Shown here piece after piece: positions 7,395 to 46,536 of a stretch of 64,000 bases of DNA. The position numbers and the translations under genes were made by a program. Each line of letters starts with the position of its first letter. Position 1 is the first letter of the stretch. The notes beneath the pieces were generated by a model. It was not told the origin of the DNA, made no database searches, and saw only the letters and a list, made by a program, of their open reading frames with translations. This DNA is from Verrucomicrobiaceae bacterium (GTDB lineage: Bacteria > Verrucomicrobiota > Verrucomicrobiia > Chthoniobacterales > JAATET01), in contig JAIYAZ010000135.1 of assembly GCA_027488755.1 (NCBI GenBank), forward strand, positions 1-64,000. Direction: 5' to 3'.

Positions 7395-7485
7395 TAAACA
7401 GGATTATGCAGGATTTGGAGGATTAACAGGATGAAGGAAGGGGAGGGAATCCCGTTAATCCTGTAAATCCCCGAAATCCCGTTTA
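7395..7485. repeat. Imperfect inverted repeat between divergent gltX and yqeY (left arm 7395-7432, right arm 7449-7485)
   Basis: taaacaggattatgcaggatttggaggattaacaggat versus atcccgttaatcctgtaaatccccgaaatcccgttta (near reverse complement). Confidence 0.85.
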
Positions 7486-7496
7486 GGTTTTTCGGC

Positions 7497-7949
7497 ATGG
7501 CTCTCCAAACCCAGGTTGACTCGGACATCAAGGACGCGATGCGCGCGAAGGACGCGGCGAAGCTCGGCGTGTTGCGCATGCTGAAGACGGCGCTCATGAA
7601 CGCGGCGATTGAGAAGGGGGGCGCGGGGACGATTCTCGAGGACGCGGAGGCGACGGCGGTGATCCGCAAGGAGGTGAAGAAGCGGCAGGATTCCGTGGCG
7701 AGCTTCGAGGGCGCGGGGCGCGCGGAGCTGGCGGAGAAGGAGAAAGCCGAGATCGTGGTGCTGGAGACGTATCTGCCGCAGGCGCTTTCCGCGGAGGCGG
7801 TGACGGCGCTGGTGCGCGAGGCGATTGCCGAGGCGGGCGCGACGTCGAAGAAGGACATGGGCGCGGTGATGAAGATCGCGAACGCGAAGGCGGCGGGTCA
7901 GGTCGACGGCAAGACGCTGAGCGGCGAGGTGCAGAAACAGTTGCCGTAG
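7497..7949 (+). CDS. yqeY: GatB/YqeY domain-containing protein
   Basis: 150 aa, DIKDAMRAKDAAKLGVLRMLKTAL...LETYLPQALS...KKDMGAVMKIANAKAAGQVDGKTLS. Confidence 0.92.
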   Translation: MALQTQVDSDIKDAMRAKDAAKLGVLRMLKTALMNAAIEKGGAGTILEDAEATAVIRKEVKKRQDSVASFEGAGRAELAEKEKAEIVVLETYLPQALSAEAVTALVREAIAEAGATSKKDMGAVMKIANAKAAGQVDGKTLSGEVQKQLP

Positions 7950-7950
7950 G

Positions 7951-8658
7951 ATGGCGGAGGGACGGCAACCCACGCTGGGCGTGGTGCTGGTGGCGGCGGG
8001 CGCGAGCCGGCGGATGGGGTTTGACAAGATCCTCGCGCCGGTGGCGGGCGAGCCGTTGCTGCGGCATGCGCTGCGGGCGTGCGAACAGTGCGCGGCGGTG
8101 GGGCGGATCGTGATCGTGTGCGCGCGGGAGCGGGAGGCGGACGTGCGGGCGGCGACGACGGATGCGCGCAAGCTGGCGGCGGTGGTGCCGGGCGGCGCGG
8201 AGCGGCAGGAGTCGGTGGAGATCGGCGTGGCGGCGCTCGGGGACGCGGTGGATTTTGTGGCGGTGCATGATGCGGCGCGGCCGTTGCTGACGCCGGATTT
8301 TTTGGCGCGGTGTTTTGCGGCGGCGGTGGAGCATGGCGCGGCGACGGCGGCGGAGCGGGTGACGGACACGTTGCAGCGGGCGGATGGCGCGGGCTTTTGC
8401 GCGGAGGTCGTGGAGCGGGAGGGATTGTGGCGGATGCAGACGCCGCAGGTGTTTCGCCGCGCGGAGTTGGTGGCGGCGATGGCGGCGGTGCGGGCGGATG
8501 GCGTGAGCGTGACGGACGAGACGTCGGCGGTGCGGCGCGGCGGGGGGCGTGTGTTTCTGGTGGAGAATCCGGATTGGAACATTAAAGTGACCGTCCCCCG
8601 TGACGTGGCCGTGGTGGAATTCCTCCTCCGCGCGCGCGCGGCAGAGAGCTTGACGTGA
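7951..8658 (+). CDS. ispD: 2-C-methyl-D-erythritol 4-phosphate cytidylyltransferase
   Basis: VVLVAAGASRRMGFDKILAPVAGEPLLRHAL, VHDAARPLL, WRMQTPQVF, TDETSAV. Confidence 0.95.
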   Translation: MAEGRQPTLGVVLVAAGASRRMGFDKILAPVAGEPLLRHALRACEQCAAVGRIVIVCAREREADVRAATTDARKLAAVVPGGAERQESVEIGVAALGDAVDFVAVHDAARPLLTPDFLARCFAAAVEHGAATAAERVTDTLQRADGAGFCAEVVEREGLWRMQTPQVFRRAELVAAMAAVRADGVSVTDETSAVRRGGGRVFLVENPDWNIKVTVPRDVAVVEFLLRARAAESLT

Positions 8659-9917
8659 TTCAACAGACGAAACTTTCCAACGGCATTCGCGTGGTGACGT
8701 GCGAGATGCCGCATGCGCAATCGGCAACCTTCGGAATCTGGGCCGCGGTCGGCGGCCGGCATGAGCCCGCGCGGTTGACCGGGATTTCCCACTTCATCGA
8801 GCACATGCTCTTCAAGGGCACGCGCCGCCGCACGGCGCGGCAGATCGGGCAGGAGGTGGAGGCGGTGGGCGGCTACCTGAACGCGACGACGACGCATGAC
8901 CACACGGTGTATTACGGCGCGGCGCCGGCGGATCATTTCGACAAGCTGAGCGGCGTGCTGTGCGACATGGTGCTGGAGCCGCGGTTCGCGGCGGCGGACA
9001 TCCGGCGCGAGCGGGCGGTGATTGCGGAGGAGATCCAGATGTATCAGGACGAGCCTTCGGAGCTTGTGCAGGAGCTGCTGTGGGAGGACATCTGGCCGGG
9101 GCATGCGCTGGGGCGGCCGTTGACGGGTTCGCTGGAGAGCATTGAGGCGATCCAGCGCGACGCGATGCTGGAGTATCGCGCGGCGCATTATCACGGCGGC
9201 AACACGGTGGTGAGCGCGGCGGGCCGCATCCGGCACGAGGACGTGGTGGCGCGGGTCGAGCGGTTGCTGGGCGCGCTGCCGAAGGGGCGGCGCAGCCGGG
9301 TGGCGGCGGCGCCGGCGATTCCGGCGAAGCCGCGGATTCGCGTGGTGGAGCGGGAGACGCAGCAGGTGCACGTGGCGTTTGCTTTGCCGTGCTGCGATCT
9401 GCATTCCGAGGATCGTTACGCGACGGCGCTGCTGAACGTGCTGCTGGCGGGCAACGTGAGTTCGCGGCTGTTCCAGGAACTGCGCGAGAAGCGCGGGCTT
9501 TGTTACAACGTGAGCTCGAACGTGAGCCAGTATGAGGACGCGGGCGTGATCAATTTTTACGTCGGGCTGGACGCGAAGAATCTCGAGCGGGCGATGACGT
9601 TGCTCGCGCGGGAGCTGCGGCGGTTGCGTGAGGTGCCGGTGGGCGCGGCGGAGCTGAAGCGGGCGAAGGAGTATGCGATCGGCTCAAGCCGGATGTCGCT
9701 GGAGCGGACGGGCGCGCAGAATTCGCGCATCGGGTATTCCGCGTTGTTTTACGGCGGGGTGCGGGATGCCGAGGAATCCCACGCGCGGATTCGGGCGACG
9801 ACGGCCGCGGATTTGCAACGGGTCGCGCGGGCGGCGCTTCGGATGAATCGCGTGACGATGACGATCGTGGGCGCGGTGCCGGAGCGGGCGCCGGTGCGTC
9901 GGTGGTTGGTGGGGTGA
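8655..9917 (+). CDS. M16 family zinc peptidase (processing peptidase-like)
   Basis: HFIEHMLFKGT (HxxEH) and downstream E; GTG start overlaps the ispD stop (GTGA). Confidence 0.93.
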   Translation: MIQQTKLSNGIRVVTCEMPHAQSATFGIWAAVGGRHEPARLTGISHFIEHMLFKGTRRRTARQIGQEVEAVGGYLNATTTHDHTVYYGAAPADHFDKLSGVLCDMVLEPRFAAADIRRERAVIAEEIQMYQDEPSELVQELLWEDIWPGHALGRPLTGSLESIEAIQRDAMLEYRAAHYHGGNTVVSAAGRIRHEDVVARVERLLGALPKGRRSRVAAAPAIPAKPRIRVVERETQQVHVAFALPCCDLHSEDRYATALLNVLLAGNVSSRLFQELREKRGLCYNVSSNVSQYEDAGVINFYVGLDAKNLERAMTLLARELRRLREVPVGAAELKRAKEYAIGSSRMSLERTGAQNSRIGYSALFYGGVRDAEESHARIRATTAADLQRVARAALRMNRVTMTIVGAVPERAPVRRWLVG

Positions 9918-10069
9918 TGGTTGTTCGTTGTTGGTTGTTGGTTGATGGTGGCCGGATGAGGGTTCCGGAAGATCATGCGGCGACGGGGGTGCAGGCTCGG
10001 TTTGAGGCGGAGATGAGGGCGCTGCCGGGGTGGCGGGGGGATTTCGAGGCCCTGGAGGCGGCGCGGAAA

Positions 10070-10098
10070 ACGAAAACGGCGGCCGATGGGGCCGCCGT
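10070..10098 (-). terminator. Rho-independent terminator of the L,D-transpeptidase gene
   Basis: 9-bp stem acggcggcc/gggccgccgt with 5-nt loop at 10076-10098, followed on the minus strand by TTTTCGTTTT. Confidence 0.75.
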
Positions 10099-10134
10099 CT
10101 CGAAGGGGTTGGAGGAAGAGGATTCCGCCGCCGG

Positions 10135-10794
10135 TTAGAAGTTCCACATCTTGCCCTTGGCGTGGTCGGAGAAGACCTGCGGGCTGAGGAGGTAGGACAT
10201 GGGCGGGTCGGGGAGATGGCTGTCGTCGAGCCGGGGCAGGGACTTGCCGATGGTGGCGTCCCAGGGCTGGCTGGTGGCGATGTTGATGGGGGTGCCAACC
10301 TTGATGAGCTGGAAGGTTTTGCGGGCGGCATTGAGCGGCATGCGGACGCAGCCGTGCGTGGCGGGCGTGGCTTTCACGAAGCCCCAGTGGAGGCCGTAGG
10401 CGGGTTTGAACTCCATCCAGTAGCTCATGGGGTAACCGGCGCCGGGGCTGCTGACGCGGCGGCGGGTGGCCTGCTTGGAGTAGATGGTGAAGTTGCCGTG
10501 CGGGGTGGGCGAGGCGGCCTTGCCGACGCAGACGGGGGTGGCGAGGAGGACCTTGCCGCCTTCGACGACGTAGAGGCGCTGGGCGCCGGTGCTGAGGTAG
10601 AGTTTGACGGCGTTGGGGTTGCTCGCCGGGGTGACGGCGGGGTCGTAGCTGAAGGAGGTGCGGTGGCTGGTGGTGGGGGTGGTGGCGCAGGCGCCGAGGA
10701 AGAGGGCGATGGCGGCGAGGGCGGCACCGGTGAGGGCGCGGGCCGGAGCGGTTCGAGTGGGCATCATAGCGCGGGAAAGTGGGGGAAGTTTCAC
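10135..10794 (-). CDS. L,D-transpeptidase (YkuD domain) lipoprotein
   Basis: Lipobox LFLGACAT; catalytic HGCVRMP; start may be an internal Met (MMPTRTAP). Confidence 0.92.
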   Translation of the reverse strand: MKLPPLSRAMMPTRTAPARALTGAALAAIALFLGACATTPTTSHRTSFSYDPAVTPASNPNAVKLYLSTGAQRLYVVEGGKVLLATPVCVGKAASPTPHGNFTIYSKQATRRRVSSPGAGYPMSYWMEFKPAYGLHWGFVKATPATHGCVRMPLNAARKTFQLIKVGTPINIATSQPWDATIGKSLPRLDDSHLPDPPMSYLLSPQVFSDHAKGKMWNF

Positions 10795-10832
10795 GTCAAA
10801 TCAAGGGCGGATTCTGCGGGGGGCGGGGGGAA

Positions 10833-11606
10833 TCAGTTCCGGCGGGCGGGGAGGTGGGCGGTGCAGTATTCGTGGCCGTCGGTGCTGACGCGGAAGTCGA
10901 GTTCGGGGTTGGAGACCTCGGTGCGGCCGCAGACTTCGCAGCGGTGGAGGGTTTCGGTGGCGGGGACCTGGGCGACTTCGAAGCGGGCGCGGCGGGCGTT
11001 GATTTCGCGGCGTTGGGCGGCGTCGCGGAGGAGGGCCGGGCCGAAGAAGAGGGCGTAGTTGGCGAAGCAGACGAGGAGGGCGGCGCGGGTGCCCCAGTCG
11101 CCGGCGAGGAGGCTGAGGGAGAGGAGGACGGCGCTGACGAGGGCGATCCACTTGAGTTTGATGGGGAGGATGCCGAAGAGGAGCATCTGGAGGTTCGGCA
11201 GGAGGGTGCCGGCGGCGAAGAGGAGGGAGGAGTTGAGGGCGACGTTGGCGAGGGATTGGCCGAAGACGAGGGCGGCGGCGGTGCAGCCGAGGTAGCCGGT
11301 GACGTAGTAGAGGTTCAGCCGGAAGGTGCCCCAGGTGCTTTCGATCATTTCGCCGAGCTGCCAGGTGACGAGGAGGTAAAAGAGGACCCAGATGAGGCCG
11401 GAGACGGTGGGGATGAAGATCCAGCTGACGAGGCGCCAGACTTCGCCGGAGAGGATGGCCTGGCGGTCGAGGGTGAGGGCCTGGACGTAACCGGGGTTCG
11501 CCATGCCGAGGAGGAAAACGAGGGCGTTCAACGCGACGACGTAGCGGATGAGGCCGGGGACGGCGAAGCGGCTGAGGTGTTTTTCGAGGGTGGCGAGGAG
11601 CGACAT
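10833..11606 (-). CDS. Rhomboid-like membrane protein with C-terminal Cys/His motif; apparently lacks the catalytic GxSG
   Basis: VVALNALVFLLG...GEVWRLVSWIFIP...W.LGEMIESTWGTFRLNLYYVTGYLG; tail CEVCGRTE...EYCTAHL. Confidence 0.7.
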   Translation of the reverse strand: MSLLATLEKHLSRFAVPGLIRYVVALNALVFLLGMANPGYVQALTLDRQAILSGEVWRLVSWIFIPTVSGLIWVLFYLLVTWQLGEMIESTWGTFRLNLYYVTGYLGCTAAALVFGQSLANVALNSSLLFAAGTLLPNLQMLLFGILPIKLKWIALVSAVLLSLSLLAGDWGTRAALLVCFANYALFFGPALLRDAAQRREINARRARFEVAQVPATETLHRCEVCGRTEVSNPELDFRVSTDGHEYCTAHLPARRN

Positions 11607-11648
11607 TTTTGGGAAAGCGGGAAGCGGAAAGCGGAAAAGGAAGAGGGG
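11607..11648. repeat. Dispersed polypurine intergenic repeat (GGAAAGCGGAAA type)
   Basis: ttttgggaaagcgggaagcggaaagcggaaaaggaagagg; closely matches the copy at 6021-6060. Confidence 0.7.
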
Positions 11649-11651
11649 GGA

Positions 11652-11870
11652 CTAATCGGGGCGGAGGATTTCTTCGACTTCGAGCTTCTTCACGCGGAGG
11701 TGGCCGATTTTGAGGCGGCCGATGGCGAATCGGCCGACGGCGAGACTGCCAATGGCGACGGCGCCCACGGCGATCGCTCCGAGGGCGACCGCGCCGACGG
11801 TGGCCACCGCGACGACCGCGGCTCCGACGGTGACGGCTTCAGCTTTGTGGGCGACGCGGGGGGTGTTCAT
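11652..11870 (-). CDS. Small pentad-repeat protein ([VLIF]-A-[VIL]-G-x)n
   Basis: ATG at 11870 (CAT 11868-11870); 72 aa MNTPRVAHKAEAVTVGAAVVAVATVGAVALGAIAVGAVAIGSLAVGRFAIGRLKIGHLRVKKLEVEEILRPD; 5-residue periodicity. Confidence 0.7.
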   Translation of the reverse strand: MNTPRVAHKAEAVTVGAAVVAVATVGAVALGAIAVGAVAIGSLAVGRFAIGRLKIGHLRVKKLEVEEILRPD

Positions 11871-11919
11871 GGTTGGGGGTTGCGGGTTGATGGTTGTTGG
11901 TTCCTGACTTCCGGCTCCC

Positions 11920-12330
11920 TCAGGGTTGTTGGGCGGGGGGCGGGGTGGGTTTGAAGGCTTCGCCGAGGCTTTGGCCGGCGTCCTTGATGGCTTCGCCGAT
12001 GCCCTGGATGGCGGTTTGGGCGTCCTTGAGGGAGCGGACCATGCGGGCGGCGCGGTAGTCGGCGCGAAGGTTGGCGACGGTGGCGCGGAGGCCGGCGGCT
12101 TCGGCGGTTTTGCCCTGCGAGGTGAGTTTGTCGACGTGCTGGTCGAGTTTCGCGAGGTCGGCTTCGATGGCGGCCTGGGTGGTGTCGGTGGGCGCGGTTT
12201 TGTAGGTGGCGATTTGCTGGCGCAGGTCGTCCACTGTGCGCTGGGGGTTGTCGCAGGCGGCGAGGGTGAAGGCGAGGAGCAGGGCCACGGCGGTGGGGGC
12301 CCACCGCCCTCCACGGAGGACGGGGTTCAC
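11920..12330 (-). CDS. Hypothetical helical lipoprotein
   Basis: GTG start overlapping the pgi stop; lipobox AFTLAACDN; heptad-like helical body. Confidence 0.7.
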
Positions 12331-13910
12331 GCGGTGAAGGAGAAGGTGTCGGCGGCGGGCGTCGCGCCGGGGGTGGCGTGGTAGCCGGCGTGGTTCGCGG
12401 CAAGGTGGTGGGCGACGTGGAAGATGGTCTCGGGCTCCGCGCCGGTGGCGGCGGCGAGGGCGTCCGCGGTGAGCGCGGTGCCGGGGGCGGCCTGGAGGGC
12501 GGCGGCGACTTTGGCCTGGACGGCGAGGACGTCGGCGGCGGCCTTTTTGCCGGCCTCGACGCCGGGCTGGTGGTAGGCGTTGATGTTCACGAGCGAGCCG
12601 TAGAAGCCGACGGCGCGTTCGTAGAGGGCGATGAGGGCGCCGAGGTTGAAGGCGTCGACGGTGGGGATGGTGACGGTGATGGATTCGCGCCCGCCTTCGT
12701 GGAGGGCGCTGCGGGTGCCGCGGAGGAAGCCCTGGAGGTAGTCGCTGCTGGTGACGCCGGGTTCGACCGGGAGCTCGGGCGTCGTGCTGGCGCGGCTGAC
12801 TTCGATGAAGGTGACGAAGAAGTTGTTCACGCCGTCGCGGAGCTGCTGGACGTAGGCGTGCTGGTCGGTGGAGCCTTTGTTGCCGTAGACGGCGATGCCC
12901 TGGTTGACGACGTTGCCGGCGAGGTCGAGCTGCTTGCCGAGGGACTCCATGACGAGCTGCTGGAGGTAGCGGGAGAAGAGGAGGAGGCGGTCCTTGTAGG
13001 GGAGGACGACCATGTCCTTTTTGCCGCGGCCGTCGCCGGCGTGCCACCACATGAGGGCGAGCTGCATGGCGGCGTTTTTCGTGACGTCGGGCTCGCGCGT
13101 ATTGGCGTCCATCGCCTTCGCGCCGGCGAGGAGGGCGGGCATGTCGAGGCCCTGGAGGGCGAGGGGGACGAGGCCGACGGCGCTCATGACGGAGGTGCGG
13201 CCACCGATCCAGTCGAACATCGGGAAGCGGCGGAGCCAGCCTTCGCGGGTGGCGGTTCGGTCGAGTTCGCTGTCCACGCCGGTGACGGCGACGAACTGCG
13301 GGGCGAAGGGCACGCCGGCGCGGGTGAAGGCGTCCTGCGCGGCGAGCATGCCGTTGCGGGATTCCTTGGTGCCGCCGGATTTCGAGATGACGACGACGAG
13401 GGTGGTGGCGAGCTTTGCGCCGATCTGGTCGAACACCTTGTGGAAGCCGTCGGGGTCGGTGTTGTCGAAGAAGTGGAGGCGGAGGGGATTGGCCGGGCTC
13501 CAGAGGGCGTCGGAGAGGAATTCCGGCCCGAGGGCGGAGCCGCCGATGCCGATGGAGAGGACGTCGGTGAACCGCGCGCCGCCGGCGGCGGTGATGCTGC
13601 CGGCGTGGACGGCGGCGGCGAAGGCGAGGATGTCGTCGCGGGTTTTTTCGACGTCGGCGCGGAGTTCCGCGGTGGGGGCGAGGCTGGCGTCGCGGAGCCA
13701 GTAGTGGCCGACCATGCGGTTCTCGTCGGGGTTCGCGATGGCGCCAGCTTCGAGGTCCTTCATGGCGGCGAAGGCGGCGTCGACCTTCGGCTGCATGGTG
13801 GCGAAGAAGTCGGCGGGGAAGTTCATCCGGCTGATGTCGACGGCGAAGCCGAGGTCGTCGTAGCGGAGAAAGGTCTGCTGAAAACGGGTCCAGAGGGAGG
13901 TTGAAGCCAT
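12327..13910 (-). CDS. pgi: Glucose-6-phosphate isomerase
   Basis: [53 protein letters not shown]. Confidence 0.96.
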
Positions 13911-13939
13911 GGGGCTGAAGAAACTAGATTCGCCCCGGC

Positions 13940-14383
13940 ATGACAAACGCAAAACCCACCGGTGACGACCTCGTGACGGGCTCGGCGCGCTGCGCGACGC
14001 CCGGGGAGACGCAGGCGCTGGGGGCGTGGTTTGCGGCGCGGGTGCCGGCGGATGCAGTGTTGTCCTTGGAGGGGCCGCTGGGCGCGGGGAAGACGCAGTT
14101 TGTGAAGGGGTTCGTCGCGGCGCGGGGTCATGCCGGCGGGGTGAGCAGTCCGACGTTCACGCTGGTGCACGAATACGGCGCGGTGGCGCATTTCGACTGG
14201 TATCGGCTGGAGGCGCCGGGGGACGTGGCGGCGCTGGGCTGGGACGATTATCTGGACGGCGGCGGCACGCTGCTCGTGGAGTGGGGCGACCGGTTTCCGG
14301 AGCAATTGCCGGCGGGGGCGTGGCGGCTGCGGTTTGCGGTGGACGGCGAGGCGCGGGAGATCGCGTGGGGGAGGGTGCCGTGA
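13940..14383 (+). CDS. tsaE: tRNA threonylcarbamoyladenosine biosynthesis ATPase TsaE
   Basis: [16 protein letters not shown] (P-loop), [25 protein letters not shown]. Confidence 0.95.
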
Positions 14384-38751: not shown

Positions 38752-39822
38752 TCAGGTCGTGTAGGCTTCGCCGAGGCCGAGGCGGCCGAGTTCCTGCCGG
38801 TAGGCGATGGAGGTGCGGTCGGCGCGGATGTGGACTTCCTCGAGGAGGTCGATGGGGAGGTCCTCGGGGTATTGGGCCTGCACGATGGCGCGGTCCTCGT
38901 TGAAGATCGTGACGTTGTAGTCGATGAAGGGTTCGAGGGGCTGGTCGGTGTCGTAGTTGCGCAGAAGCGGGGCGAAGAGGCGGGTCTGGCGCGCGGAGAC
39001 GGGCGAGGCGCAGTCGAGGATGACGAGGTGGGCGCCGTCGGGGAGGTGGACCTTGAGGCGGGTGGCGAAGGGGAGGAAGCAGTCGAAGACGCGGAGGACG
39101 CCCTCTTCGGGCGGGGCTTCGGTGCCGTCCTGCCGAAGGTAGTTGCCGACGGTGCTGCGGTATTCGATGTGGAGGCCGTGGGGGGCGCGTTCGACGGGGT
39201 AGTTCGGGACGTAGGGGTTGTTGGGGTCGCCGAAGGTGTTCGCGTGGAGGAAGGCGAAGTGGGCGACGTCCATGAAACCTTCGAGCTGGCGGCCGGCGGA
39301 GCAGGCGATGTCGAGGGGGTCGGGGAGGGCCTGCTGGTAGGCGGGGTCGTCCCACTCGGGGAGCTCGGGGAAGGTGCCGGCGGGTTCGGCGGCGAGGCAG
39401 GTCCAGACGAGGCCGTAGGCTTCGCGGACGGGGTGGGTGGTGAGGCGGAGTTTGGGGGGGATGGCGGCGGAGGGGTGGGCGGGGATTTTGACGCATTGGC
39501 CGCAGGCGTCGTAGCGGAAGCCGTGGTAGGCGCAGACGAGGTCGCCGTTTTCGAGGGAGCCCATGCTAAGGGGGACGCCGCGGTGGAGGCAGAGGTCGTT
39601 GGCGCAGGTGAGGGTGTCGCTGGTGCGCCAGAGGACGAGGCGCTGGTCGAGGAGTTTGGCGGCGACGGGCTGGTCGGTGACGTCGCGGCTGAGGGCGACG
39701 GGATACCAGAAGTTGGCGAGGATGCGCCAGTCGCTCTCGGCGAAGGTGCAGCCGCGGGGAAGGGGACCCGTGACGGGCGGGGGAAGGGGGACGCCCGGGG
39801 CGGAGGCGGCGGGGGCGCTCAT
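38752..39822 (-). CDS. Rieske [2Fe-2S] non-haem oxygenase, pheophorbide a oxygenase/TIC55-like
   Basis: CLHRGVPLSMG...CAYHGFRYDACGQC (Rieske) and DVAHFAFLH (DxxHxxxxH iron site). Confidence 0.9.
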   Translation of the reverse strand: MSAPAASAPGVPLPPPVTGPLPRGCTFAESDWRILANFWYPVALSRDVTDQPVAAKLLDQRLVLWRTSDTLTCANDLCLHRGVPLSMGSLENGDLVCAYHGFRYDACGQCVKIPAHPSAAIPPKLRLTTHPVREAYGLVWTCLAAEPAGTFPELPEWDDPAYQQALPDPLDIACSAGRQLEGFMDVAHFAFLHANTFGDPNNPYVPNYPVERAPHGLHIEYRSTVGNYLRQDGTEAPPEEGVLRVFDCFLPFATRLKVHLPDGAHLVILDCASPVSARQTRLFAPLLRNYDTDQPLEPFIDYNVTIFNEDRAIVQAQYPEDLPIDLLEEVHIRADRTSIAYRQELGRLGLGEAYTT

Positions 39823-40844
39823 CAGGCGGTGAAGGTGCGGCCGAGGCCGAGGGCGGCGAGTTTTTGCCGGTAGGTGATGGAGCTGCGGTCGGCGCGGATG
39901 TGGACCTCCTCGTGGAGGTCGATGGGGAGTTCCTCCGGGTATTGTTGTTCGACGATGGCTTTGTCCTCGGCGAAGACCTGGTGGTTGAAGTCGAGGGTGG
40001 CCTGGAGCGGGGCGTCTTTGTCGAAGTTGCGGCAGATGGGGACGAAGACGCGGGCCTTGCGGGCGGAGACGGGGCAGGCGGCGTTGAGGATGTGGAGCTG
40101 GCCGTCGTTGGGGAAGAAAACGGTGAGCTTCGCGGTGAAGGGGAGGAAGACCTCGAAGAGACGACGCCACTCGAAGCCGGGGGGATTGAGGTGCTTGAGG
40201 TGGGTGGGGTAGTTGCTGACGGTGCTGCGGTAGTCGGCGCGGAAGCCGCGGGGGGTGTCCTCGACGGGGTAGGTGGGGACTTCGGGGTTCTGGCTTTCGC
40301 CAAAACTCTCGACGTGGACGAAGGCGAAGTGGCTGACGTCGAGGAATCCCTCGATCTGGCGGCCGGCGGAGGCGTCGAGTTCGACGCTGTCGGGGAGAAC
40401 CTGGAGGTAGCTGGGATCGTCCCAGCAGGCGAAGTCGGGCAGCTCGGGATCGCCACCTTCGCGAACCAGGCGAACCCAGACGAGGCCGTAGGCTTCAGTG
40501 ACGTCGTAGGTTTGGAGACGGAGCTTCGGGGGGATGGCGGCGGAGGGGTGGGCGGGGATTTTGACGCATTGGCCGCAGGCGTCGTAGCGGAAGCCGTGGT
40601 AGGCGCAGACGAGATCGCCGTTTTCGAGGGAGCCCATGCTGAGGGGGACGCCGCGGTGCAGGCAGAGGTCGCGGGCGGCGGTGAGGGTGTCGCCGGTGCG
40701 CCAGATGACGAGGCGCTCATCGAGCAGGGTGGCGGCGAATGGGCGGTCGGCGACTTCGCGGGAGAAGGCGACGGGATACCAGTAGGGGGCGAGGGCCCGC
40801 CAGTCGGACTCGAGGAAGGTGCAGTTCCGGGGGAGGGTCATCAT
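39822..40844 (-). CDS. Rieske [2Fe-2S] non-haem oxygenase, tandem paralog
   Basis: CLHRGVPLSMG...CAYHGFRYDACGQC and DVSHFAFVH; ATGA overlap with the downstream paralog. Confidence 0.9.
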   Translation of the reverse strand: MMTLPRNCTFLESDWRALAPYWYPVAFSREVADRPFAATLLDERLVIWRTGDTLTAARDLCLHRGVPLSMGSLENGDLVCAYHGFRYDACGQCVKIPAHPSAAIPPKLRLQTYDVTEAYGLVWVRLVREGGDPELPDFACWDDPSYLQVLPDSVELDASAGRQIEGFLDVSHFAFVHVESFGESQNPEVPTYPVEDTPRGFRADYRSTVSNYPTHLKHLNPPGFEWRRLFEVFLPFTAKLTVFFPNDGQLHILNAACPVSARKARVFVPICRNFDKDAPLQATLDFNHQVFAEDKAIVEQQYPEELPIDLHEEVHIRADRSSITYRQKLAALGLGRTFTA

Positions 40845-42294: not shown

Positions 42295-42394
42295 GAAGGG
42301 TGATTCCTAAGCGGGGCGGGGCGGGGCGTCAATCCCGCGCGCGCGAAAATTTGCGTGCGAATTTGTTGGGGGGTTCTAGGTTGAGGTGGAGTTC

Positions 42395-43237
42395 ATGCCC
42401 CAGAACACGGTCAACCTTTGGTCGATGCTGTGCGGGGAGCTCGAGTCCTCGCGGGCGGCGGGTTCCACGGCGGCGGGGCATGTGGAGGCGGCGCGGAAAT
42501 TTGAGGCGACGGCGCGGGAGGTTTTTCGCGACCGGCCGGATCGGCTGCGGGACGCGCTTGAGATCGCGGGGGACGTTCAGCAGAGCGAGGGGGAGTTGAC
42601 GTCGGCGCGGCGGTGTTTTGAGGAGGCGCTGGCGGTGGGCGAGGCGGCCCCGGAGGCGCGGGGGCGGTTGGCGACAAAGCTGGCGATGCTGGAGGATGCG
42701 GCGGGGGAGCTGGCGGAGGCGCGGCGGCATTACGAGATGGCGCTGGAGGCGGCGGCGAAGGGGCATGACCGTTCGCAGCGGGCGACGCTGTGGAACAATC
42801 TGGCGGCGTTGCACCGGCAGGCGGGGGATTTGGCGGCGGCGGAGGCGGGTTACGAGCGGGCGTTGGCGGAATCGGCGGAGGTGCATGGGCCGGACCATCC
42901 GGAGGTGGCGTTGTTTGCGAACAATCTGGCGGTGGCCTGCACGGACCGGGGAAATCTGGTGAAGGCGGAGCATCTGCATTTGCGGGCGCTGCAGATTCGC
43001 GAGCGGACGTTTGGGGCGCATCATCCGGAGGTGGCGGCGTCACTGGCGAATCTGGCGGCGGTGTATCAGGCGCAGAATCTGCCGGGGAAGGCGGAGCGGT
43101 TTTACCAGAGCGCGCTGCACATTCTGACGGAGTTTCACGGCGCGAATGATCCGGAGGTGCGGCGCATTCGCGAGAACTACGAGAGCCTGCCGCAGGTGCG
43201 GGCGCGGGGGTTGTCGCGGACGCAGCGGCTGGGCTAG
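42395..43237 (+). CDS. Tetratricopeptide repeat protein
   Basis: Repeated NNLAALHRQAGDLAAAEAGYERALAE / ANLAAVYQAQNLPGKAERFYQSALHI units. Confidence 0.88.
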   Translation: MPQNTVNLWSMLCGELESSRAAGSTAAGHVEAARKFEATAREVFRDRPDRLRDALEIAGDVQQSEGELTSARRCFEEALAVGEAAPEARGRLATKLAMLEDAAGELAEARRHYEMALEAAAKGHDRSQRATLWNNLAALHRQAGDLAAAEAGYERALAESAEVHGPDHPEVALFANNLAVACTDRGNLVKAEHLHLRALQIRERTFGAHHPEVAASLANLAAVYQAQNLPGKAERFYQSALHILTEFHGANDPEVRRIRENYESLPQVRARGLSRTQRLG

Positions 43238-45300
43238 AGGGCGAGTTCGCCGGGGAGGCCGCCGGCGGGGGCGAAGGGGGCGAACTTGGCGTGGAGCTCG
43301 TGGAGCTTCGCGACGTAATACTCGATGTTTTCGTCGCGCGCGGCGGGGTTCCATAACGCGACGGGGCGGGCGGCCTCGTAGGCGACGACCTTCTTTTTCG
43401 TGCCGGTGATGTAGTAGCTGACGGTGTCGCCGGCCTGGTAGTCGCGGCCGCTGGCGAGGGCGAGTTCGAAGGCGGCGGAGCGGTTGCGGGAGGAGGCGGC
43501 GATTTTGCGTTGGTAGGCGGCGGGGCTGTCCTGGAGCGTTTCGGTTTTGGCGAGCTGCGTGATGGGCCAGCGGCGTTCGCGGATGGCGGCCTCGAAGTCC
43601 GAGTGGAGGGCGTGAACGGCGGCGGGTTCGTCGCGCAGGATGTGGCCGATGGCGCGGAGGAGGTAGTCGCGCAGGTAGGGTTCCATGCCGCGGGACTTGA
43701 GCGCGGCGCCCTTAAGCTTGATGCCGCCGTCGGCGGTGAGCAGGGCGTAGTTTTTCGCCTTGTAGCTGAGCATGGCGGGGTGGCGGGCGTCGAATTCGAC
43801 CTCGATGCCGGCGGGCAGGACGGTGCGGAGGCCGGATTCGAGCGCGTCGGCGGGGGTGTCCGCCGGGGGTTGGAAGTAGATGCCGTCAGTGTCGATTTCG
43901 ATGACGCGGGCACCGGCCTGCTGGAGCCAGGCGACCATGGCGCGGAGGATTTCGCGGCCGCGGGCGGTGACGGCGGCGGCGGCGTCGAAGTCGGCGAAGT
44001 GGCCCTGCGCGAAGCCGAGGTAGCCGTAGAAGCTGTTGATGAGGATTTTGAGGGCGTTTTGCTGGGCGGAGAAGTGGCGTTCCTCGGCGGGGGTGGCGGC
44101 GGCGCGCATGCGTTGCTTGGCCTCGTAGCGGAAGGCGCGGAGGCGGGTGAGGAGTCCGCCGAAGACACCGAGTGTGTCGCTGGCGGGGAGGAGCCCGAAG
44201 CTGAGCATGAGGGAGGGGTAGAGCGAGGTGATGTCGCAGTGCCAGACGTTGCGCGCGACGCCGGTGAAGAAGATGTCGGTGTAGCCGCCTTCGAAGGGCC
44301 GTGGCTCGGGCGGCTCGGGGATGCTGTGGGCGCAGCGGAGGTATTCGCGGAGGAAGAGGGAGTCGATCTTCGTGGCGTTGCCGCGGACGATGACGTCCTG
44401 GAAATTGTAGGGAAAAATCTGGGCCTGGACGAAGTCGGTGGCGGCGAGCGTCGCGGCGAGGGCGCGGGTGGCGGCGAGGGGCTGGTCGGCGGGCGCGCCG
44501 AAGTGGGCGGCGACGTCGGGCAGGTCGAAGCCTTCGAGTTCGCGGGTGCCGACGTCGTAGTATTGCGCGAGGACCCAGGTGTCGACGAAGTGGCGGCCGG
44601 GGACGGCGTAGCGGGGGTATTGGATGGTTTTTTCGGCGATTTGCAGGCGCGAGGAGCGGGAGGTGAGGGGAAGGCCGCCGCGTCCCCAGGTGAGGCGGAG
44701 GCGGTGGTGGCGGGCGCGGGCGGCGAGCGCAGGCAGGAGGTGGCGGAAGAGGTGGTGGGCTTCGATGAGGTCGGGGTCGCGGGTGGCGATGAGGTCCGCG
44801 AGTTCGACGAGGGCGGCGCGTTCCTCCGCGTCGGTGGTGATCGCAAAGGTGCGCTCCCAGCCGGTGGCGTCGCCGACGGCGAGGAGGCGGAGCCGGTCGC
44901 GCGTGGGGTCGGCATGGGGCGCGTCGGCGGGCGGGTCGAGTTCGGCGTGGAGTTGCAGGCGGCGCAGGTCGTCGAAGGTGAGTCCTTTGAAAAGGGTGCG
45001 GCCGGTGCGGGTGAGGAATTGCTGGACGGGGTCGCTGAAGAAGAAGGCGCGTTCGCCGCGGAGGCCGGCGAGATCCTTCCAGGTGGGGAATTCGCGGAGA
45101 GTGGAGAGGGGGTGCGGGCCGGCGAGCGTGGCGGGCGGCTCGGCGGTCCACGCAAAGGGCGCGAAGGAATGTTCCTCGACGCGGGTGGCGCCGAGGGCGT
45201 CACGGCGGAAGACGAGGGCGGTGTGGTCGCCGTCGAATTCCACGGCGACGATGCCGGTCTCGGGATTCGCGCCGAAAAGGGCCGGGTCGGAGAGGTCCAT
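43234..45300 (-). CDS. DNA polymerase, family B, probable exonuclease-deficient
   Basis: Motif A CDITSLYPSLML, motif B NALKILINSFYGYLG, motif C IEIDTDGIYF; expected exo I/II/III acidic residues not seen; likely start ATG 45300. Confidence 0.9.
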   Translation of the reverse strand: MDLSDPALFGANPETGIVAVEFDGDHTALVFRRDALGATRVEEHSFAPFAWTAEPPATLAGPHPLSTLREFPTWKDLAGLRGERAFFFSDPVQQFLTRTGRTLFKGLTFDDLRRLQLHAELDPPADAPHADPTRDRLRLLAVGDATGWERTFAITTDAEERAALVELADLIATRDPDLIEAHHLFRHLLPALAARARHHRLRLTWGRGGLPLTSRSSRLQIAEKTIQYPRYAVPGRHFVDTWVLAQYYDVGTRELEGFDLPDVAAHFGAPADQPLAATRALAATLAATDFVQAQIFPYNFQDVIVRGNATKIDSLFLREYLRCAHSIPEPPEPRPFEGGYTDIFFTGVARNVWHCDITSLYPSLMLSFGLLPASDTLGVFGGLLTRLRAFRYEAKQRMRAAATPAEERHFSAQQNALKILINSFYGYLGFAQGHFADFDAAAAVTARGREILRAMVAWLQQAGARVIEIDTDGIYFQPPADTPADALESGLRTVLPAGIEVEFDARHPAMLSYKAKNYALLTADGGIKLKGAALKSRGMEPYLRDYLLRAIGHILRDEPAAVHALHSDFEAAIRERRWPITQLAKTETLQDSPAAYQRKIAASSRNRSAAFELALASGRDYQAGDTVSYYITGTKKKVVAYEAARPVALWNPAARDENIEYYVAKLHELHAKFAPFAPAGGLPGELAL

Positions 45301-45370
45301 GGCGGCAGCGTAGCGCGGCGGGGTGTTTTTGGCGGGGGATTTTTCGCGGCGGGTGTGATAGAGGATCGGG

Positions 45371-46117
45371 ATGGGTCGTCGCAGGCAGTCGGTGCGGGAG
45401 TTTTTTCGCGCGTATCCGTTCGGGGTGTTGCTGCTGGCGACGCTGGTGATGATCGTGGGGGCGCCGCTGACGGCGGAGTTTGCGCGGCGGGTCGAGGGGG
45501 TGCAGGGGCCGGCGATGCTGGCGCCGCTGACGATTCTGCTGACGCTGGCGTCGGCGTTTGCGGTCTGGAATTTGGCGCGGCATCGCGCGGTGATGATCGT
45601 GGCGGCGGGGCTGGTGCTGACGATCATCGGGGCGAGCAGCGTGATCACGCATCATGCGCTGAACATGGCGCACGTGGTGGTGCAGACGTTGTTTTTGATT
45701 TACGTGACCGGGACGCTGGTGCGGACGGTGTTCCGCGCGCGGATCGTGGACGGCAACATCCTGTGCGGGGCAGCGTGCATTTATCTGCTGGTGGGCACGC
45801 TGTGGGGGTTTGGTTACACGATGCTGGAGCTGACGGTGCCGGACAGTTTCATGGTGGTCGAGCCCGGTCACACGGAGGCGGTGGACCTGCGGGAGGAGCC
45901 GGGTTGGTTGATTTACTTCAGCTTCACGACGCTGACGACGGTGGGCTTTGGCGACGTGCTGCCGACGAGTGCGAACGCGCGGAGCATGGCGGTGCTCGAG
46001 GCGGTGATCGGCCAGATTATGATCGTCGTGATGATGGCGAGACTCGTAGGTCTTCATGTGGCGCACGCGACTTCGCCGAACGCGCACACGAAATTTTCCG
46101 TATCGGAGGAGGAGTGA
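45371..46117 (+). CDS. Potassium-channel-like ion channel
   Basis: Multi-TM with selectivity filter TTLTTVGFGDVLP. Confidence 0.85.
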   Translation: MGRRRQSVREFFRAYPFGVLLLATLVMIVGAPLTAEFARRVEGVQGPAMLAPLTILLTLASAFAVWNLARHRAVMIVAAGLVLTIIGASSVITHHALNMAHVVVQTLFLIYVTGTLVRTVFRARIVDGNILCGAACIYLLVGTLWGFGYTMLELTVPDSFMVVEPGHTEAVDLREEPGWLIYFSFTTLTTVGFGDVLPTSANARSMAVLEAVIGQIMIVVMMARLVGLHVAHATSPNAHTKFSVSEEE

Positions 46118-46536
46118 TGAACATGAGGAATTTTGCGCGGGTGGTGTTTCTGCTGGTGGGCGTTCTTGGGCTCACGGCCGCGGGCTTTACGTTTGAGCGG
46201 GTGGACTACGGGGAGCCGGTGCGGTTTGCGAAGGGCAAGGAGCTGCGATTTCCGGACCTGCGGCTGCGCTATCTGGGGGCGCGCGAGATTCCCGCGGCGG
46301 GCAAGGTTCCGGGCGTGCGGATGGAGGACTTCGTGGTGACCGGCCGACGCGGCGCGCAGAAAATCACGTGGATGAACGGGCCGGGGAAGGCCGTGCCGGT
46401 GGTGTTTACGGTCGCGGCGGAAAACTACGTGCTCGAGCTCGGGCAAAGCGTCGGGCAGGCAAAGCCGCTGGCGGCGGATGAAGCGGTGGTGTGGCCGGAG
46501 AAGCGATACCGGGAGCTGCTGGCTGCGCCGCGCTAG
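46117..46536 (+). CDS. Hypothetical secreted/membrane protein
   Basis: MNMRNFARVVFLLVGVLGLTAAGFTFERVDYG; TGATG overlap with channel gene. Confidence 0.65.
   Translation: MNMRNFARVVFLLVGVLGLTAAGFTFERVDYGEPVRFAKGKELRFPDLRLRYLGAREIPAAGKVPGVRMEDFVVTGRRGAQKITWMNGPGKAVPVVFTVAAENYVLELGQSVGQAKPLAADEAVVWPEKRYRELLAAPR

Follow-up and report, generated by a model that had tools for sequence, protein, structure and literature searches.

A G3-type family B DNA polymerase of a Verrucomicrobiaceae bacterium with a degraded proofreading site

The window analyzed here is a stretch of 64,000 nucleotides from a Verrucomicrobiaceae bacterium (assembly GCA_027488755.1, contig JAIYAZ010000135.1, positions 1 to 64,000 of the forward strand). 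Its minus strand carries an uninterrupted reading frame of 688 codons (43234-45300) for a family B DNA polymerase, polB (Table 1). The gene converges with a TPR-repeat gene, as the initial annotation had described, and diverges from an ion-channel gene. A longer frame of 804 amino acids with a GTG start was rejected for polB, because it overruns the ion-channel gene. Two further observations concern the surrounding DNA. Antisense to polB runs an open frame of 1008 codons (43510-46536, plus strand), for which high GC content, and not a gene, is the likeliest explanation. At 38752-40844, two adjacent minus-strand frames resemble tandem duplicates of a Rieske-type oxygenase and have CLHRGVPLSMGSLENGDLVCAYHGFRYDACGQC in common.

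Table 1 Features of the polB locus, in window coordinates
Feature	Position	Strand	Remarks
polB, G3-type family B DNA polymerase	43234..45300	-	688 aa + stop; ATG 45300-45298, stop 43236-43234
N-terminal domain, residues 1-108	44977..45300	-	AlphaFold model and alignment
polB segment containing Exo I, Exo II and Exo III remnant	44431..44976	-	alignment and model
Exo I strand LQLHAEL, residues 115-121	44938..44958	-	Asp replaced by H118; Glu kept as E120
LRLLAVGDATG, residues 137-147	44860..44892	-	strand after Exo I
Exo II region DPDLIEAHHLFRHLLPAL, residues 175-192	44725..44778	-	Asn replaced by H183, Asp by L188
Exo III remnant PLAATRALAATLAATDF, residues 274-290	44431..44481	-	Tyr and Asp gone; 27-residue deletion directly before
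Motif A VWHCDITSLYPS, residues 352-363	44212..44247	-	intact (alignment)
Motif B KILINSFYGYLG, residues 418-429	44014..44049	-	intact (alignment)
Motif C VIEIDTDGIYF, residues 466-476	43873..43905	-	both Asp kept, with the G3-marking Glu
KxY motif SYKAKNYAL, residues 512-520	43741..43767	-	intact (alignment)
C-terminal tail, ends PGELAL	43237..43284	-	putative weakened beta-clamp-binding tail
TPR-repeat gene, convergent with polB	42386..43237	+	3' ends overlap by 4 bases; context, outside the mechanism
Gap between divergent polB and ion-channel starts	45301..45370	.	70 bases; without a LexA-type site
Ion-channel gene (Ion_trans_2), divergent from polB	45371..46117	+	context only

The polymerase site of the window protein is complete. 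Motifs A (core CDITSLYPS, residues 355-363), B, C (core EIDTDGIYF, residues 468-476) and KxY are all intact, which identifies the protein as a family B polymerase and bears out the initial annotation on this point. The catalytic aspartates of motifs A and C are kept in all 96 aligned family proteins. A Pfam scan of the window protein returned DNA_pol_B (97.5 bits) and no exonuclease domain; the domain was detected in an exo-intact relative at 47.7 bits. Judged by its motifs, the window protein is very probably an active polymerase. Its C-terminal tail ends in PGELAL; tails of relatives end in QGSLF, QGDLF or QTSLAL, and those of genus-mates in QGLLL, QTSLAL and QGALL. PGELAL is possibly a weakened version of a beta-clamp-binding motif.

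The exonuclease site was read from an alignment that sets E. coli Pol II beside 96 family proteins, namely the window protein and 95 relatives. The collection behind it comprises 80 loci of public genomes, together with the matches that 42 out of 97 near genomes gave. Canonical relatives present DIET at Exo I, HNxFxFD at Exo II and YxxxD at Exo III; SIDIET, GWNVVQFD and YNLKD of the E. coli enzyme stand in register with these. Where the canonical site has D, E, N, D, Y and D, the window protein has H, E, H and L, after which Exo III is absent. LQLHAEL aligns with LQLDIET of the relatives, Exo II is HHLFRHLL in place of the canonical motif, and, compared with the Chthoniobacter-like protein L002, 27 residues are deleted between HFG and TRAL. 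Of the four exonuclease carboxylates one is left (E120), and neither the Asn of Exo II nor the Tyr of Exo III has been kept. A lysine that is conserved between these two motifs (GLKxVA) is P261 in the window protein, and six out of the seven exo-lost lineages described below have it altered; it may match the catalytic lysine of phi29-type polymerases.

The AlphaFold model of the window protein (mean pLDDT 93.7, compared with 93.4 for the exo-intact L002) has pLDDT blocks of 81-98 across the exonuclease domain. It places a strand at residues 114-122 (Exo I), followed by one at 136-144 (LRLLAVGDATG). The Exo III helix, residues 299-328 in L002, is shortened to 274-293, and the helix preceding it is absent. 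Fold matches in the PDB are complete family B polymerases. Archaeal members of the family, Deep Vent among them, are the best solved relatives, by fold over the whole length (TM about 0.7-0.8) and by sequence over the polymerase part only. The model predicts that the exonuclease domain is kept as a fold.

Alignment and model together revise the initial annotation in part. It had taken LRLLAVGDATG for Exo I, which is one strand too late, and had considered both Exo I acids gone; the Asp is indeed replaced, yet the Glu is kept. Exo II had been read correctly as lost. The loss of Exo III stands, and substitution as its sole cause does not, as the deletion removes this motif. The alignment with E. 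coli Pol II and the bacterial PolB homologs leaves one of the four carboxylates in the exonuclease site, and the predicted strands and shortened helix agree with it. The overall claim that proofreading residues have been lost holds, with three of four carboxylates gone, in a loss that the genus shares and that recurs in about seven lineages.

The distribution of this loss argues against chance. DENDYD occupies the six exonuclease positions in 67 of the 95 relatives, and one further relative differs solely at the Asn. The four carboxylates and the Tyr are present in all seven distant references (E. coli Pol II and two PolBs each from Deinococcus plasmids, Salinibacter phages and cyanobacterial plasmids); the intact site is thus taken as ancestral, and changes are counted as losses. 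Three genus-mate genomes carry polB, at 65-71% identity to the window protein. In all three, His again replaces the Exo I Asp, the Asp of Exo II is gone and the deletion at Exo III recurs. The exonuclease loss is neither an error nor the mark of a pseudogene.

A tree was built from the polymerase part only, with the exonuclease columns excluded. It requires seven changes between intact and lost sites, six of them forced by well-supported branches; the bootstrap range is 6-7 changes, a single origin occurs in 0% of bootstrap trees, and a quick tree with far outgroups likewise gives seven. The exo-lost lineages are the window genus, the LR76 group (L003, L004, L086), L009, L007/L102, the L107-L110/L008 group, L056, and 12 Lentisphaeria that form one clade and whose titles in several cases point to a gut sample. 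The tree shows independent losses of predicted proofreading in about seven lineages. A convergence test, which retained columns kept in at least 93% of intact members and changed in at least three exo-lost lineages, returned columns in or adjoining the exonuclease site and none in the polymerase part proper: the D, E and T of Exo I, a position after it, the F of Exo II, the Lys, and a stretch that leads up to Exo III and continues into it. Positions 348-356 in the reference, which carry a polymerase label in this test, are Exo III residues.

Other peculiarities were seen among these relatives. Some polB frames are broken (L088 of genome G077 has an internal TAA; in L104/L023 and in L106 the frame is split), which may reflect outright gene decay, or misassembly, in some genomes. 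In all 12 exo-lost Lentisphaeria (L064-L066, L068, L071-L075, L078-L080), polB lies directly after, or overlaps, a same-strand gene resembling IMP cyclohydrolase (PF07826; 177 bits in L072), a pairing not seen among exo-intact relatives. The polymerases of these 12 are without the C-terminal tail that bears the presumed beta-clamp motif. The idea that the exo-lost PolB replaces Y-family polymerases in gut Lentisphaeria found no support, as an IMS polymerase is kept in 11 of 12 such genomes. On two conjugative cyanobacterial plasmids (L115, L116), a PolB of ~600 amino acids adjoins plasmid-borne dnaN and dnaX, which suggests a plasmid replisome.

Substitution rates separate the two halves of the protein. 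The exonuclease/polymerase divergence ratio is 1.56 both in the window genus and in the Lentisphaeria clade; three intact clades give 0.83-0.94, and the L107-L110 group, at 1.08, is intermediate. Against the genus-mates, NG86 dN/dS for the whole gene is 0.25-0.31; the polymerase part gives 0.21-0.24 and the exonuclease part about 0.32-0.38. These values are approximate because synonymous sites are near saturation. By these estimates polB is shown to be under purifying selection, with a relaxation of constraint that is confined to the exonuclease domain. The alignment, the loss shared within the genus, its recurrence, the relaxed constraint and the structure model all point the same way: the window PolB almost certainly lacks 3'-5' proofreading activity.

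To which group of bacterial family B polymerases does the protein belong? The mark of G3 is a motif C Glu, and polymerases of Salinibacter and Nostoc phages are among its members (Kazlauskas 2020, PMC7544198). All 96 family proteins have this Glu (E-x-DTD; VIEIDTDG in the window protein), as do the relatives from Deinococcus, phages and cyanobacteria; E. coli Pol II has a Tyr at the position. The best phage matches of the window protein are from Salinibacter phages (34% identity over 98%), followed by Nostoc phages. Motif C, the N-terminal, exonuclease and polymerase domains and the phage relatives assign the window protein to G3 (Pol epsilon N-like). A 2026 survey (Timinskas, PMC12926913) describes the exonuclease sites of G1 and G3 as conserved and G2 (PolB2) as the inactivated group. 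The conserved site is a descriptive, not a defining, feature of G3; in the window protein it reads HE, HL and deleted. The protein carries the motif C of G3 but has lost the exonuclease site, and we therefore file it as a variant of G3.

Identity with E. coli Pol II (G1) is ruled out, with AHH in place of the GWN of its Exo II and Leu in place of the Asp. Both proteins have the same fold, and Pol II is likewise an accessory family B polymerase in bacteria, but it is SOS-induced and has an intact DIET, GWNVVQFD and YNLKD and a motif C of YGDTDS. Archaeal PolB2 and the bacterial G2 mutasome resemble the window protein in keeping an inactive exonuclease domain as a fold (PMC11791011), and differ in motif C and in their neighbors. 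In a control PolB2 from a Halorussus vallis plasmid (L117), motif C is VVHGIVDS, with one Asp and a His, as opposed to the EIDTDG with both Asp of the window protein. Directly upstream of the control PolB2 lie a Rad51-like gene and a 96-aa gene; this archaeal PolB2 operon (L117:1069-4152) agrees with the published order iRadA-PPB2-PolB2 (PMC11791011). At the window polB, no iRadA or PPB2 neighbors were found, the neighbors being the TPR and ion-channel genes, and the window genome has one Rad51-like match, which is RecA-sized. Without the G2 motif C and without mutasome neighbors, the window protein is best described as a G3 polymerase that lost proofreading independently.

The genome (3.48 Mb, 99.8% complete) contains one PolB, a separate DnaE1 and a DinB. 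In the exo-lost genomes checked, no second, intact PolB was found; a second PolB match in G115, an exo-intact genome, is a piece of the same gene. An ordinary cassette of SRAP, lexA, imuA, imuB and dnaE2 lies elsewhere in the genome (contig C97, about 7400-14070, L125), with ImuA and SRAP scoring below the curated cut-offs. At the lexA start of this cassette (L125:2277) is a perfect palindrome, CCGAATATATGTTCGG, which, judging from this one site, is probably the LexA operator of the lineage. No site of this type with up to two mismatches was found between 40751 and 46947 of the window, and such matches across the window are at chance level (47 observed, 48.9 expected). Neither an operon partner nor a conserved neighbor of polB was found across the family. 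The initial annotation saw no obvious SOS partner at polB, and we concur: the gene has no LexA-type site and adjoins no mutasome genes. With neither an operator near it nor a conserved neighbor, polB is not tied by position or operator to known mutagenesis machinery.

We propose, with moderate confidence, that polB encodes a stand-alone G3 polymerase with a working polymerase and lost proofreading, used for short accessory synthesis or extension at damaged or stalled sites. Eukaryotic Pol epsilon has a catalytic half that is a relative of this enzyme. The exonuclease fold has probably survived for its part in holding the enzyme together and guiding the template. A mismatched 3' end could not be removed by the window PolB and would be extended, instead of leaving the enzyme idling. 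The most likely job would be short synthesis at damaged or stalled sites, such as gap filling and extension past lesions, in the manner of PolB2 and Pol zeta; the enzyme would not be the replicative one. Archaeal PolB2, which is exo-dead, works as an extender (PMC8764526; PMC11791011). Eukaryotic Pol zeta is likewise a family B extender with an inactive exonuclease, but it is multisubunit and of another clade, and serves as an analogy only. Bacterial Pol I enzymes without proofreading and APEX/PolA2 are also accessory polymerases with a lost DEDDy site, but belong to family A (PMC12926913).

A translesion or mismatch-extension role in particular has roughly an even chance of being correct, as it draws on the analogy with PolB2 and Pol zeta. 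Counting against it, polB is without a LexA-type site, though one precedes lexA-imuA-imuB-dnaE2, and without an operon partner conserved in the family; counting against a full loss of proofreading, one Exo I Glu remains. Loss of proofreading also need not mean a translesion role: according to the 2026 survey, the proofreading site is substituted in roughly half of the Pol I enzymes of bacteria (PMC12926913). Extended to the G3 polymerases of Verrucomicrobia and Lentisphaerae, our proposal would be that about seven conversions produced stand-alone non-proofreading extenders, without mutasome partners and outside LexA control, a generalization that we offer tentatively and as somewhat doubtful.

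The main rival holds that selection was simply relaxed: the patches synthesized would be so short that proofreading became dispensable, and the site would have decayed by drift, without a specialized function. It is a credible account, if not a probable one. The repetition of the loss in unrelated clades, the lack of an SOS box and of an operon partner at polB, the faster divergence of the exonuclease domain after the loss and the substituted DEDDy site in about half of PolA1 enzymes (PMC12926913) all agree with it. However, the gene is under purifying selection, even in its exonuclease domain (dN/dS about 0.32-0.38), and recurrent losses with the polymerase columns unchanged fit a selected loss as well as drift.

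Alternatively, a separate DnaQ-like exonuclease could provide proofreading in trans, and the holoenzyme would then still proofread. Bacterial Pol III, which works in this manner, is a precedent. At the loci analyzed, however, no exonuclease gene adjoins polB and no neighbor is conserved family-wide, and we consider this very improbable. Even less probable is an exonuclease that remains active through the remaining Glu and substitute carboxylates of an unrecognized kind. E120 is left and the domain is predicted to fold, but the Asp residues of Exo I, II and III and the Tyr are gone, Exo III is deleted and the Lys has become P261. Single changes at such positions abolish the exonuclease activity of other family B enzymes. 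Least probable of all, to the point of being ruled out, is membership of the known exo-dead PolB2/G2 mutasome, with which the protein has exonuclease loss and a bacterial chromosomal location in common, but from which its motif C, its neighbors and its nesting among exo-intact G3 proteins in the tree set it apart.

The stand-alone G3 polymerase proposed here bears on a group that is the second largest of the bacterial family B polymerases and has no characterized member, and to which the current survey ascribes high accuracy and a conserved exonuclease (PMC12926913). That proofreading was lost repeatedly while the polymerase site was kept is an argument that mismatched ends are tolerated or needed in the job of the enzyme, in these bacteria at least. 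Natural pairs of exo-intact and exo-lost orthologs, such as the window protein and the Chthoniobacter-like L002 at 59% identity, offer a means to probe what proofreading does. If the proposal is true, the G3 extenders would be bacterial counterparts of PolB2 and Pol zeta.
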